The notes under the pieces were generated by a model that saw only the letters and a program-made list of their open reading frames with translations, was not told where the DNA came from and searched no databases. Shown one piece after another: positions 213 to 61,112 of a stretch of 64,000 nt of DNA. The stretch is from Rossellomorea aquimaris (GTDB taxonomy: Bacteria > Bacillota > Bacilli > Bacillales > Bacillaceae_B): contig NZ_JXZC01000001.1 of the NCBI RefSeq assembly GCF_000935355.1, positions 1,054,001 through 1,118,000 on the forward strand, given 5' to 3'. The position numbers and the translations under genes were made by a program. Numbering within the stretch: the stretch's first letter is position 1; each line of letters starts with the position of its first letter.

Positions 213-421
213 CTTTGCTCCCCCTTTATGTTCACAACAGTAAATATTCAGCTAATATTCTAAAAATAGATCCTTTCTCATCATACCATATTTCGTTGTT
301 AAAATATCCCTTTTGGGGGACAGTAAAAAGCCGGTCACCATCCCTGTCTTGGATTCGTAACCGGTAGTTCTTCAGTATTCATTTAAATATCAAGAATACC
401 TAAGCCATCACCCGAAAAGTG

Positions 422-1159
422 TTAATGCTCATAGATCATCTTCCTCGTCATTCCACCATCCACCACTAGGTTTTCTCCTGTTATGAAATCATTATCCGGA
501 TGAGCAAGAAATAAGCATGCCCTTGCTATGTCTTCAGGTTTCCCCACCCTGCCGGATGGATGCTGGTCATGATCCTTGTCCCGTAATGAATCATACTCTT
601 CGGTTTGAATCCAGCCTGGACTTATTGAGTTCACCCGGATCCCTACCTCACTCAATGTAATGGCCATTGAATGAGTCAAACTCACAATGCCCCCTTTAGT
701 TGCAGAGTAGGCTTCCGTATCCGGTTCAGACATTGAAGCCCTGGTAGAGGCCATATTAATGATGCAACCACCTCGGTTCTTCATTAAAGCTGCCCCTTCT
801 CTACTGCAATAGAAGACACTGCTTAAGTTTGACGAAAGAATGCTGTCCCAGTCCTCGGGATCCATCTTCCAGAAGGACATGAACTTCGAAACACCTGCAT
901 TGTTAATTAGTACGTCCACCACGCCATGGTCTTCTTTCATCTTTGAAAAAACATCTTTTACCTGTTGATAGACTCCTACATTGACTTCATGAAACCGTGT
1001 TGAATATCCTTCAGAGTTGAGCTTCAGGGATAATTCCTCCCCTTTATCCCCATCCATGTCCATAAATTCAACGACTGCGCCCTGCTTCGCAAATTCTTCA
1101 ACCAGCGTTTTACCGATTCCATTCGCCCCACCTGTTATGCAGACAATTTTATCTTTCAC
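422..1159 (-). CDS. SDR-family NAD(P)-dependent oxidoreductase
   Basis: A classical short-chain dehydrogenase/reductase of about 245 residues. The N-terminus carries the cofactor-binding TGGANGIGK motif, followed by the structural NNAG motif. The catalytic YSATK (Tyr-x-x-x-Lys) is near residue 150, and SPGWIQT follows it. The C-terminal ENLVVDGGMT is typical of the family. An acidic MDMDGD after beta-strand 2 suggests preference for NAD(H) over NADP(H), by analogy. Substrate cannot be told. An ATG at 1168 directly abuts its AAGGGAG ribosome site with no spacing, so the GTG at 1159 is the more likely start. It appears to be a single-gene unit. Confidence 0.88.
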   Translation of the reverse strand: MKDKIVCITGGANGIGKTLVEEFAKQGAVVEFMDMDGDKGEELSLKLNSEGYSTRFHEVNVGVYQQVKDVFSKMKEDHGVVDVLINNAGVSKFMSFWKMDPEDWDSILSSNLSSVFYCSREGAALMKNRGGCIINMASTRASMSEPDTEAYSATKGGIVSLTHSMAITLSEVGIRVNSISPGWIQTEEYDSLRDKDHDQHPSGRVGKPEDIARACLFLAHPDNDFITGENLVVDGGMTRKMIYEH

Positions 1160-13403: not shown

Positions 13404-13553
13404 AACAAAAAACCTCTTCCGGATAAGAAGAGGTTTGCATTCGTCACTCTTTCTTATCTGTCAGCCATATAGCTGCAAGAATTAGCACCGTGCTTAATAA
13501 GTCGGTTGCCGGGCTTCATCGGGCTGGTCCCTCCGCCTGCTCTTGATAAGAAT
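13404..13553 (-). promoter_or_regulatory. SAM-I (S-box) riboswitch of mtnWXBD
   Basis: On the minus strand the P1 strands CTTATC (13545-13550) and GATAAG (13453-13458) enclose AGAGCAGGCGGAGGGAC, GATGAAGCCCGGCAACC and GCACGGTGCTAATTC, the S-box core. An intrinsic terminator follows (AACCTCTTC / GAAGAGGTT then T-run, 13404-13436). Its loop contains CTTATC, able to pair with the 3' P1 strand as antiterminator. SAM binding should stop transcription. Confidence 0.95.
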
Positions 13554-15790: not shown

Positions 15791-16000
15791 AACTCTTATC
15801 AAGAGCTGGCTGAGGGATTTGGCCCTATGAAGCCCAGCAACCGACCATAATACCGTATTAAAGCGGGGCGCAGTATGCGCCGGATTGACTAATCCAGTAA
15901 GGCACGGTGCTAATTCCAACAGAAAGATTTTCTTTCTGAGAGATAAGAGGCGACGAAGATGATTCTTCAAGCCTCTTTCGAACATGGAAAGAGGCTTTTC
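15791..16000 (+). promoter_or_regulatory. SAM-I (S-box) riboswitch of mtnKA
   Basis: P1 CTCTTATC (15793-15800) pairs with GATAAGAG (15942-15949). Between them lie AGAGCTGGCTGAGGGA, ATGAAGCCCAGCAACC and GCACGGTGCTAATTCC, the S-box core, with an enlarged P3 (about 15860-15895). The terminator is GCCTCTTTC / GAAAGAGGC (15971-15995) plus TTTTC. Reads into mtnK. Confidence 0.95.
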
Positions 16001-18962: not shown

Positions 18963-18977
18963 AATGTCTCCCTCTTT

Positions 18978-19017
18978 CTATTTAGATTAACATCTAATTA
19001 GATGTTAATCTAAATAG
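18978..19017. promoter_or_regulatory. 40-bp perfect palindrome, likely operator of the ArsR-type regulator
   Basis: A perfectly symmetric 40-bp sequence centred at 18997/18998; the half-site contains TTTAGATTAACATCTAA. It lies in the leader of the regulator gene, which is where an ArsR autorepressor binds. Confidence 0.75.
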
Positions 19018-19114
19018 GATGATAATTCAATCACTAATTTTAAAAGGCTCTTTTCGCAAAGGTTGTTGTTTATTGAATGGGATCTGATTTGGCTTTGTAA
19101 ACCAGTGTGTGCTG

Positions 19115-19234
19115 GATGGTGAGGGGAACCGCTTCGCTTTCCGCGGACGTTCGACCGAGCCTCCTCAGCTTAGCCGAACGGGGTCTCGGCACGCCCGTAC
19201 TTCCGCAGGAGTCTACGCAGTTTCCCTCACCATC
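19115..19234 (-). repeat. GC-rich foldback unit A (minus orientation)
   Basis: A 120-bp unit with outer arms GATGGTGAGGGGAA and TTTCCCTCACCATC. On the minus strand it shares GACTCCTGCGG, GAGACCCCG, GAGGAGGCTC and CCGCGGAAAGCGA with unit B. Confidence 0.72.
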
Positions 19235-19398
19235 TATAAGAGTTTTTCGTGACAGAGCTTATTTATGCCAATAAACAATTGAAAGAAACAGTATTACTAC
19301 TATACAAGCTAAGATCGACTGTACATTTTGAAAAATGTTGTATTCTAAACGTGTATGGTATATATATTAGTCTATAGTAAGAAACTCACATTTAGAAA

Positions 19399-19524
19399 GT
19401 TGATTGGAGCGGAAGGTGCTCGACTCCTGCGGGAATAGCGGGAAAGTTGAGACCCCGCAGGGCATAGCCCGAGGAGGCTCAACTCACGCCCCGCGGAAAG
19501 CGAGCACCTGGAGCGGAAATCAAC
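19399..19524 (+). repeat. GC-rich foldback unit B (plus orientation)
   Basis: A 126-bp unit. AGGTGCTCG and CGAGCACCT close the inner stem and GTTGAT / ATCAAC the outer one; GGAGCGGAA appears as a direct repeat on both sides. Internal blocks are shared with unit A in the same order. Confidence 0.75.
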
Positions 19525-19574
19525 CACTACTCGCTTTTTCAAAAGCAACAAAGTTTACGAAAAGAGCCTTATAA

Positions 19575-19612
19575 AAAAACAGGCATCCTCTATATGGAGG
19601 ATGCCTGTTTTT
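19575..19612 (-). terminator. Terminator after ogt
   Basis: Thirteen-bp stem AACAGGCATCCTC / GAGGATGCCTGTT with T-runs on both strands, just past the ogt stop. Confidence 0.88.
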
Positions 19613-19616
19613 CATT

Positions 19617-20078
19617 CTATTTTTCTAACAACAATAAGGTTTCTTTCTTATCCACCTGCTTACCGGCATAGCCAGTAAGTGTTTTATTCTTACCTATGAC
19701 ACGGTGGCATGGGATGATGATGGGGAAACGATTGGCTTTATTCGCTTGCCCTACTGCCCTTACAGCTTTAGGTCTTTGAATCGCTTGGGCTACATCTTGA
19801 TAAGACCATGTTTCACCGAATGGGATCTGTTGCAGGGTGTTCCATACTTCTTTCTGAAAAGCAGTTCCTTCTATCTTTAAAGGAAGATCAAATTCTCTTC
19901 TCTCTCCTTTAAAGAATTGTCTGATTTGTTCTTGTGCACTCTTTAATATTGGATGATCCTTGTCAGAACACGCCTTCTCTTCACCTTCTACAAATTGTAC
20001 CGAAATAAGATGGCTATGATCTGCTTGAAGCTCTAAATTTCCAATCGGGCTCTCCATCACAATAGCATGAATTGACAT
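19617..20078 (-). CDS. ogt: Methylated-DNA-[protein]-cysteine S-methyltransferase
   Basis: A 153-residue suicide DNA repair enzyme that transfers the alkyl group from O6-alkylguanine to its own cysteine. The active site is IIPCHRVIG; the HTH region (GETWSYQDVAQAI) and the arginine finger region KAVRAVGQANKANRFP are intact. It has no Ada-type N-terminal domain. Starts with AAAGGAG upstream and lies 14 bp downstream of the histidine kinase gene, so the two are probably co-transcribed. Confidence 0.93.
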   Translation of the reverse strand: MSIHAIVMESPIGNLELQADHSHLISVQFVEGEEKACSDKDHPILKSAQEQIRQFFKGERREFDLPLKIEGTAFQKEVWNTLQQIPFGETWSYQDVAQAIQRPKAVRAVGQANKANRFPIIIPCHRVIGKNKTLTGYAGKQVDKKETLLLLEK

Positions 20079-32687: not shown

Positions 32688-32820
32688 AAAAAGACCCTTG
32701 CCTAAATAAGGCAAAGGTCTTGCTGAGCATAATCATTATGCCAACAAAGCCGATGGAATAATCCATGAACTGACGACTTTGTTTAGGTATGACACCTATA
32801 GCTACTCCCCTTTGACAGGT
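32688..32820 (-). promoter_or_regulatory. yybP-ykoY manganese riboswitch of terC
   Basis: On the minus strand the aptamer runs TCAAAGGGGAGTAGC, then GGTGTCA and GTCGTCAG, to GCAAGACCTTTGCC, the yybP-ykoY consensus with its P1 pairing (CAAAGG / CCTTTG). A terminator-like stem (AAGACC..TTGCCT / AGGCAA..GGTCTT) then T-run overlaps the 3' P1. Manganese is the known ligand of the class. Confidence 0.92.
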
Positions 32821-32885
32821 AGAAAACGTTTAAGTTGTATACCCATATCTTACCTCATGATTGACGTTTCGTAAAGAACTAAAGC

Positions 32886-53391: not shown

Positions 53392-53420
53392 TTGCCTTTT
53401 ATATGGTTACCTGATATTAT
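53392..53420 (+). promoter_or_regulatory. Promoter of the cold-shock gene
   Basis: TTGCCT (53392-53397), 17-bp spacer, TATTAT (53415-53420). The resulting 5' leader would be about 115 nt, usual for csp genes. Confidence 0.65.
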
Positions 53421-53543
53421 GTAAGAGAATTATTTTTGTTCGGAATGGAAGGATAGACAAAGTTTTTAAAGCTTTTCGCCTTGAAGTTACATGAGCAAGA
53501 ATAGTAATACAATTGTGTGGAGAACACACGAGGAGGTAACATT

Positions 53544-53744
53544 ATGTTAGAAGGTACAGTTAAATGGTTTAACGCAGAAAAAGGTTTCGGATTCATCGAG
53601 CGCGAAGGTGGAGACGACGTGTTCGTACACTTCTCAGCTATTCAAGGCGAAGGATTCAAAACTTTAGAAGAAGGTCAAAAAGTTTCTTTCGAAATCGTTC
53701 AAGGAAACCGTGGCGACCAAGCTGCTAACGTTACTAAAGCATAA
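53544..53744 (+). CDS. Cold-shock protein (CspA/CspB family)
   Basis: A 66-residue single [18 protein letters not shown] (RNP1) and DVFVHFSAI (RNP2). It binds single-stranded RNA/DNA and acts as RNA chaperone at low temperature. The ATG at 53544 follows AGGAGGTAAC; nine extra codons upstream are unlikely to be translated. A TGTGT/ACACA hairpin sits immediately ahead of the ribosome site. Long leader, own terminator. Confidence 0.95.
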
Positions 53745-53760
53745 TTCATGCTACTGACGA

Positions 53761-53787
53761 AGACCCTACTCTGTAGGGTCTTTTTTC
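53761..53787 (+). terminator. Terminator after the csp gene
   Basis: AAGACCCTAC / GTAGGGTCTT, 3-nt loop, followed by TTTT. Confidence 0.92.
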
Positions 53788-60812: not shown

Positions 60813-60899
60813 ATGTACGATAGATATATGCATAGGCTAAAGGGCCTATTCCAATCCTCGCTTTATCCTCCCAATTCCCGAAGAAGATAATACATGATA

Positions 60900-61063
60900 A
60901 ACAAGGCAGGTCTCCTGACTCATGCTTCACCCTACTCTAAGGCCTTCCCATCGTATACGACAGTGGCAGTTCCTTATTTCGTCAGCACTTACAGTTGCGG
61001 GGACAGCTCCGGATTCACACCGGATTCCCTTTTAAGTCCATTCAGACACCCTATTCACAGGTC
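60900..61063 (-). promoter_or_regulatory. Cobalamin (AdoCbl) riboswitch of nrdAB
   Basis: On the minus strand the core reads GAATCCGGTGTGAATCCGG, then CTGTCCCCGCAACTGT (B12 box region) and GTCAGGAGACCTGCC at the 3' end, with the AGGGTGTC element at the 5' end. This is a complete cobalamin riboswitch. B12 binding should favour the downstream terminator. Confidence 0.95.
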
Positions 61064-61065
61064 AT

Positions 61066-61112
61066 TATCAATATATAGTTTAATTAATGAAACAGAACAC
61101 AAAATGTTGTGT
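61066..61112 (-). promoter_or_regulatory. Two NrdR-type boxes, 31 bp apart
   Basis: ACACAAAATGTTGTGT (61097-61112) matches the 16-bp NrdR consensus ACACWATATATWGTGT at 14 of 16. TATCAATATATAGTTT (61066-61081) matches at 12 of 16 with a perfect core. Starts are exactly 31 bp apart, the usual tandem NrdR-box spacing. The first is also part of a 12-bp perfect inverted repeat (61091-61102 with 61107-61118). The likely -10 region lies in the second box. Confidence 0.75.

Follow-up and report, generated by a model that had tools for sequence, protein, structure and literature searches.

A probable IS1595-type miniature transposable element in Rossellomorea aquimaris carrying two opposed copies of one folded core

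A 523-bp block of Rossellomorea aquimaris DNA is very probably (about 0.9, judged from sequence comparison) a non-autonomous transposable element, or MITE, with IS1595-family (ISXO2-like DDE) ends and a transposase supplied in trans. These odds rest on the ends, the target duplications, the empty sites and the transposase family with matching ends. The block lies at 19046-19568 of the window, the 64,000-nucleotide stretch of contig NZ_JXZC01000001.1 analysed here, and runs GGCTC...GAGCC, with GGCTCTTTTCGCAAA... at its left edge and ...TTTACGAAAAGAGCC at its right (Table 1). It contains no gene of its own and no transposase. The outer inverted repeats (19038-19071 and 19543-19576) are 34 nt long and imperfect, being 85% complementary, and their span takes in the duplicated target. 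A sequence-only reading of this DNA had proposed a non-coding block with outer inverted repeats at 19042-19572; block and repeats stand, and the ends prove to have been set 4 bases too wide on each side. A further inverted repeat flanks unit A, around which no clear target duplication was found; its left arm, GGCTTTGTAAACCAG in the window copy, reads GGCTCTGTCAATTAG in many sister copies.

Table 1. Coordinates of the composite element, its parts and related loci (window positions unless a locus is named).
Feature	Position	Strand	Remarks
Left copy of 8-bp target duplication, TTTTAAAA	19038..19045	.	
Left terminal inverted repeat, type T1, GGCTCTTTTCGCAAAGGTTGTTG...	19046..19072	+	Same end type on autonomous IS1595 elements
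Inner inverted repeat, left, GGCTTTGTAAACCAG	19091..19105	+	Resembles IS1595 end type T2
Unit A, GC-rich foldback core, reverse orientation	19112..19238	-	Covariance model 63 bits; arms 72% complementary
Inner inverted repeat, right, TGACAGAGCT	19250..19259	-	
AT-rich spacer between inner right repeat and unit B	19260..19397	.	
Unit B, GC-rich foldback core, forward orientation	19398..19524	+	Covariance model 133 bits (B itself in model); 44 genome matches
Right terminal inverted repeat, type T1, ...AACAAAGTTTACGAAAAGAGCC	19542..19568	-	
Right copy of target duplication, TTATAAAA, 7/8	19569..19576	.	
Hairpin with T-run, intrinsic-terminator-like, downstream of methyltransferase gene 19617-20078	19575..19612	-	Element sits in T-run
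IS1595 element on Niallia plasmid, L142	1529-3293		
IS1595 element on Niallia plasmid, L147	2919-4604		
Composite in G029, L329	1910-2421 (G029:C1:1744882-1745393)		Inverted relative to window copy
Foldback inserted in B, L025	match region		
Foldback inserted in B, L286	from ~500 on		
Foldback inserted in B, L288	~250-450		

The element is repeated as a unit. Whole-element alignment within its own genome (G000; 4.30 Mb in 44 contigs) identified 17 composites including the window copy, among which L014 lacks the middle of A, L018 is ended by a contig edge, and the left end is poor in L002 and L009. Searched singly, B gives 44 matches in this genome and A gives 47, many of the latter being weak A-B cross matches. 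All 36 genomes of the genus contain a match of some length, and in at least 13 of them, counting G000, the element is near full length. Reduced forms also occur: T1 ends enclose B without A at L008, L390 and L391, and at L287 a T1-T1 form of ~132 bp has lost its cores except for a remnant of B. The sequence-only reading had called for a list of copies, ends and target duplications, all three of which were found, and had staked itself on further copies of A and B with outer repeats at other sites, which exist. Outside chromosomes, the whole element gave partial matches in 16 plasmid records, none covering 80%, and no match in the phage records searched. Three of the plasmid matches are B-like cores that share one intergenic position on a zwf-gnd stretch. 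In two genomes, B is interrupted at three loci, always at the same point, by a different foldback of ~115 bp that includes CCCCGACAAGCATAAGC; two of the three insertions may have a 4-6 bp duplication.

Target duplications accompany most of these copies. Among 16 testable composites, allowing at most 3 bases of slack, the duplication is 8/8 in eight, 7/8 in three (the window copy among them) and 6/8 or less in five, whereas only one of 25 random AT-rich pairs reaches 7/8 with the same slack. Without slack, 7/8 is reached in only 3/17 composites, because most of the end coordinates used were 1-2 bases off; in the alignment of the composites the duplications abut the element ends. Empty sites are also preserved. 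In four congeners (G003, G021, G035 and G006) the joined flanks of the window copy are contiguous at 87-88% identity, and the aligned empty sites show one short A/T stretch at the junction; six further congeners aligned at the site have a longer spacer or unrelated sequence.

A different arrangement was found in G029, whose flanks are 93% and 92% identical to those of the window and lie ~514 bases apart with a full composite between them. This composite occupies the same octamer (TTATAAAA / GTATAAAA) as the window element in the opposite orientation, as alignment scores in the two orientations indicate (678 vs 57 for the element, 70 vs 630 for the flank). G029 is therefore not a simple sharer of the window insertion, since its composite is inverted; either the element flipped via its outer inverted repeats, or a separate second insertion took place at the same site.

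The target of the window copy is an AT-rich octamer at the T-run of the hairpin listed in Table 1, and the methyltransferase gene is that of an O6-methylguanine methyltransferase (PF01035). Such settings recur, with the T-run of a terminator-like hairpin reaching the insertion point at 10/17 composite sites, compared with 59/920 intergenic AT-rich octamers near the same copies (p=3e-8). The oriented test with longer loops gave 10/17 vs 110/1688, and an earlier one with short loops 6/17 vs 186/1020. Because the oriented, longer-loop definition was set after inspection of the flanks, the p-value overstates how certain the effect size is.

The identity of the mover is suggested by the ends, which are of the type (T1) found on autonomous IS1595-family elements, both those of congeners and those of Niallia plasmids. 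On two Niallia plasmids, T1 ends enclose an annotated IS1595 transposase and another gene, with perfect 8-bp duplications, TTTAAAAA and TTATTTAT; the extra genes of L142 and L147 encode a DinB-family protein and a hypothetical protein. Within the genus, PF12762 (DDE_Tnp_IS1595) gave six matches in 5/36 genomes. At three of these congener loci (L150-L152) the IS1595 element has T1 ends and is flanked by a perfect 8-bp duplication. At L155 an IS1595 copy with a shortened frame possesses T2 ends, like the left inner repeat of the window element, and a 7/8 duplication, and L153 and L154 show neither a T1 nor a T2 end by the patterns used. PF12762 is above cut-off in the four proteins scanned (L142, L147, L150 and L155), and the open 335-aa frame of L150 additionally matches the zinc ribbon PF12760 below cut-off. 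The accessible part of a published account gives the features of the IS1595 family as 8-bp duplications, which are usual, a zinc finger and a DDE domain (PMC8101967).

No match to PF12762 and no IS1595 transposase was found in the 44 contigs of G000. Together with the match between its ends and those of autonomous IS1595 elements, this identifies the block as a non-autonomous IS1595-type element. The same absence counts against the main reading, in that we can only infer present mobility. An IS1595-type transposase acting in trans would have recognized the outer repeats and mobilized the element in its entirety, its source being perhaps an element since lost from G000 or a copy in an assembly gap. 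A composite of mobile foldbacks served by an enzyme encoded elsewhere, as had been proposed from the letters alone, agrees with the copies, ends, duplications and empty site described here, and with a matching transposase family that is present in congeners and absent from G000.

Units A and B are diverged, oppositely oriented copies of one folded core. The arms of A (19115-19161/19188-19234) are 72% complementary and those of B (19399-19433/19490-19524) 71%. Inverted matches of 13 nt (CCGCGGAAAGCGA) and 10 nt (GAGGAGGCTC), both at 100%, and of 16 nt around GACTCCTGCGG at 88% join the two, and are the short GC-rich blocks that the sequence-only reading had described as common to them. That reading had also described units that fold on themselves and are richer in GC than their surroundings. 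Folding z-scores on the two strands are -7.4 and -7.5 for B and -3.2 and -5.4 for A, with 0/200 shuffles folding as well for either unit on each strand, and G+C is 0.57-0.64 over the units against 0.28 between them. The opposed orientation that it had assigned is seen with the covariance model it had suggested, which was built from 60 core sequences with the window's B included and its A left out; the model finds A at 63 bits on the opposite strand, the 133 bits of B being by construction.

Across the 60 sequences RNAalifold predicts 21 pairs, seven with compensatory changes. In the core search pattern 31 bases were fixed; CC-GCGGAAAGC, a block outside these, is nevertheless at least 90% conserved in most columns of the alignment. 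The central stem has the TGCGGGA form in 71/84 representatives, and the minority forms change in paired fashion (TGTGGG/CCAC, AGTGGG/CCAC, GGAGGG/CCTC and TGGGGG/CCCC). Unit B, a 126-bp imperfect palindrome, has many copies, mostly intergenic. Among 83 cores, five fall within ORFs of 90 aa or longer and 16 sit at the edge of a locus; the other 62 comprise 19 between convergent genes, five between divergent genes, and a tandem set of 25 co-oriented with and 13 opposed to the genes.

The core extends well beyond this element. A scan of named genomes found at least 118 stretches and at least 80 core loci, in genomes that, judging by their names, are presumably almost all Bacillaceae or near relatives; the exceptions are Pisciglobus halotolerans and one record under the name Arthrobacter beigongshangensis. 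With the covariance model, the core was detected in at least 49/200 genomes and at least 23/95 genera of a class sample, and in at least 2/219 genomes of a phylum sample, namely G000 and a second genome from its class; these counts are lower bounds drawn from the best 15-17 first-look candidates per genome under strict filters.

One foldback of ~100 nt, in which blocks are conserved and changes in the stems compensate each other, is common to MITEs with four end types: the IS1595-type T1 and T2 (GGCTCTGTTAAAT), and two others, T3 (GGCTGGGACA) and T4 (GGCACTGAAAAA). By strict end patterns, the 74 cores with enough flank divide into eight with T1, six with T2, three with T3, one with T4 and 56 with none, against 0/122 control places; duplications of at least 7/8 accompany 6/8 of the T1 and 5/6 of the T2 cases. 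The T4 example, L200, has ends matching 14/14 and a duplication of 8/8. Looser, one-sided patterns place 32/78 cores in T1 or T2 (controls 4/355 and 0/355). A search for any inverted repeat with an 8-bp duplication is noisy and, at its loosest setting, returned 18/80 cores vs 4/116 controls. Plasmid queries with T4 ends gave no matches, and a T2-end query gave 43 records, mostly at chance level, two of which were scanned for the core with no match. The core is absent from inside all eight IS1595 loci examined; a weak core match (20 bits) lies at 2771-2870 of L155, ~80 bases outside the right end.

T3 ends recur in G276, where 13 of the 14 copies taken (L352-L365) are near-identical over ~200-250 bases and, on this similarity, are apparently recent. 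Exact T3 ends are found on both sides in 6/14 copies and on one side in 8/14, and in the six two-ended copies GGCTGGGACA...GTCCCAGCC ends lie 254-293 bp apart. No direct duplication was noticed in the flanks of the copies with both ends. In some G276 copies the flanks extend the palindrome.

Several other explanations of these repeats can be weighed against the data. That the block is a set of chance inverted repeats in a non-coding gap has a vanishingly small probability, being already refuted by 17 copies, of which 11/16 testable ones have duplications of at least 7/8, by the empty sites, and by the folding scores. It is very improbable that the outer frame derives from a different IS family that duplicates 8 bp, for instance ISL3. 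The ends of ISL3 elements likewise start with GGCTCTTT, and their insertion duplicates 8 bp, but the elements found with the ends of the window copy encode IS1595 transposases, and ISL3 transposases number zero in G000 and occur in 6/36 genomes of the genus. Under another origin the core would be a REP/RAYT-type element, that is to say a single-strand foldback which a Y1 transposase mobilized and which inserted itself into several MITEs. Opposed foldbacks resemble the REPIN/BIME arrangement, Y1_Tnp genes, mostly of RAYT-like size, are present in 36/36 genomes of the genus (97 matches), and 46/78 cores have no recognised shell. This origin is nonetheless improbable, because 19 of the 20 Y1_Tnp loci (among the 97) checked with their flanks have no core match at E up to 10, and the single strong match, at L411, lies by a Y1_Tnp of the high-scoring IS200-like kind. 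The genome's own two RAYT-like genes, moreover, adjoin other inverted repeats. These genes (L392 1366-1959 and L393 1496-2059) each have their own inverted repeats, of the GAGGGACGGACCTC type in one case and the GTACCWGGTAC type in the other, and may form REP/RAYT pairs with them. Since the core is absent inside the eight IS1595 loci and strongly matched at only one of 20 Y1_Tnp loci, we regard it neither as a part of IS1595 nor as a REP of the local RAYT-like genes.

What the core does is less clear-cut. The alternative put forward in the sequence-only reading was a structured RNA family, which here would be a regulatory RNA or processed sRNA that MITEs happen to carry; it draws on the conserved unpaired blocks, the compensatory changes and the in-step variation of the central stem, and that part of the claim, a conserved fold, stands. 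The orientation with respect to tandem genes leans the same way, as does the apical stem alone, where a first count gave G-U 8 vs A-C 1. Over all stems of the 84 representatives, however, G-U and A-C pairs are balanced at 28:21 (p=0.39), so no strand is favoured; the first count, over the distinct arm pairs of 145 cores, was similar at 37:27. The lean of 25 to 13 is not significant (~p=0.07), and quasi-palindrome repair is also able to create paired changes. Rfam, tried on the window and six loci, gave no family at the gathering score for the core; the best sub-threshold match was tsr24 (26.2 bits vs 50 needed, E 0.0009). We consider an RNA family unlikely. A rather better, still doubtful, case can be made for a ~100-nt folded module, distributed over part of the class and moved between, or kept inside, several independent MITE families that differ in their ends, a mobile-element accessory domain or shared 'engine part' that would help any carrier MITE, for example via a host protein that binds the foldback. 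Our tentative choice, held at less than even odds, is that the core is a selfish structural passenger rather than a host gene, retained for the help it gives the element, perhaps in stopping read-through or, as a foldback, in protecting or presenting the DNA.

How the composite itself arose is an evenly balanced matter. A MITE half carrying A may have joined a MITE carrying B, after which the inner ends would have decayed and only the outer ends would still function; a T2 MITE is a possible source of A, the inner repeat being T2-like. B-type cores within T1 ends and without A are common. A itself was never found alone, which leaves an assembly from halves weak. Nine loci picked for a match to A and the left end only (L274-L281 in congeners and L289 in the own genome) all have a B-type core or remnant after A, often of the GTGGATTG type, which speaks against A in T1 elements lacking a B-type core. 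These nine loci represent a second kind of composite, in which A is followed, after a longer spacer, by a core of the GTGGATTG type that is deleted to a remnant in several copies.

Traces of a former junction are nevertheless suggested by the sequence between the units. At L275-L277 and L279, a right-T1-like sequence (AACAGCC after CATT...GAAA-type letters) lies between A and the second core. In four of the five composites tested, the spacer matches the left end of a B-only MITE better than any of 300 shuffles does; in the window copy it does not, its score of 29 falling below the highest shuffled score, 37. L010 yielded no spacer for this comparison. The stretch to the right of A, inner repeat included, scores above all shuffles in 5/5 composites when compared with L275 and L279, in 4/5 with L276, and in 3/5 with L277.

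As a mobile element, the block is an IS1595-type MITE, which is a known kind. It resembles IS1595 insertion sequences and their MITEs in its end type, its 8-bp target duplication and, among the MITEs, its lack of a gene of its own; it differs from IS1595 elements in having no transposase and in carrying two cores that are missing inside the eight IS1595 loci. ERIC, CIR and similar large intergenic imperfect palindromes recall unit B in size, palindromic form, copy number and mostly intergenic position, but the window shell has an 8-bp duplication and a nameable transposase family, and its core is common to several shells. REP/BIME/REPIN sequences with RAYTs likewise have opposed foldbacks, high copy number and intergenic positions, whereas the core occurs at one of 20 Y1_Tnp loci and lies inside DDE-transposon ends with target duplications.

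Another parallel is offered by the pneumococcal BOX/RUP/SPRITE clusters, intergenic miniature elements inserted into one another (PMC10969869); we liken them by the description in the available part of that source, and they differ in their hosts and in that the window composite has itself multiplied with its outer ends. Bhal-1, a stem-loop repeat family of a related bacterium, Bacillus halodurans, with 74 bp and 36 copies (PMC2267715), may be an earlier sighting of the core; the comparison is by description, and the available part of the source mentions no shells or transposase. Our literature survey covered titles and abstracts, with ISfinder, supplements and subscription journals outside its scope, and returned no description of the composite unit or of a core shared by different shells. 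A literature search by the element's sequence strings gave nothing recognisable by title or abstract as dealing with such bacterial repeats. Many of the GC-rich intergenic foldbacks in these genomes belong to this MITE family, in which a composite is seen to multiply as a single unit. Were the core an exchangeable accessory module, the question would be why different MITEs keep the same folded sequence while ends, flanks and stem letters change.

Other structured features were observed in the window. A 25-bp inverted repeat, 92% complementary, lies at 18973-19022 before an ArsR-type HTH/DUF2087 gene; a similar palindrome is found in all 10 congeners aligned, and it is probably the operator of this regulator itself. 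Rfam identified two SAM riboswitches, a manganese riboswitch, a cspA thermoregulator and a cobalamin riboswitch at 13451-13552, 15793-15949, 32725-32822, 53419-53787 and 60888-61068. A single copy of the GTACCTGGTAC palindrome is present at 85-95, where the shuffling expectation has a mean of 0.00.
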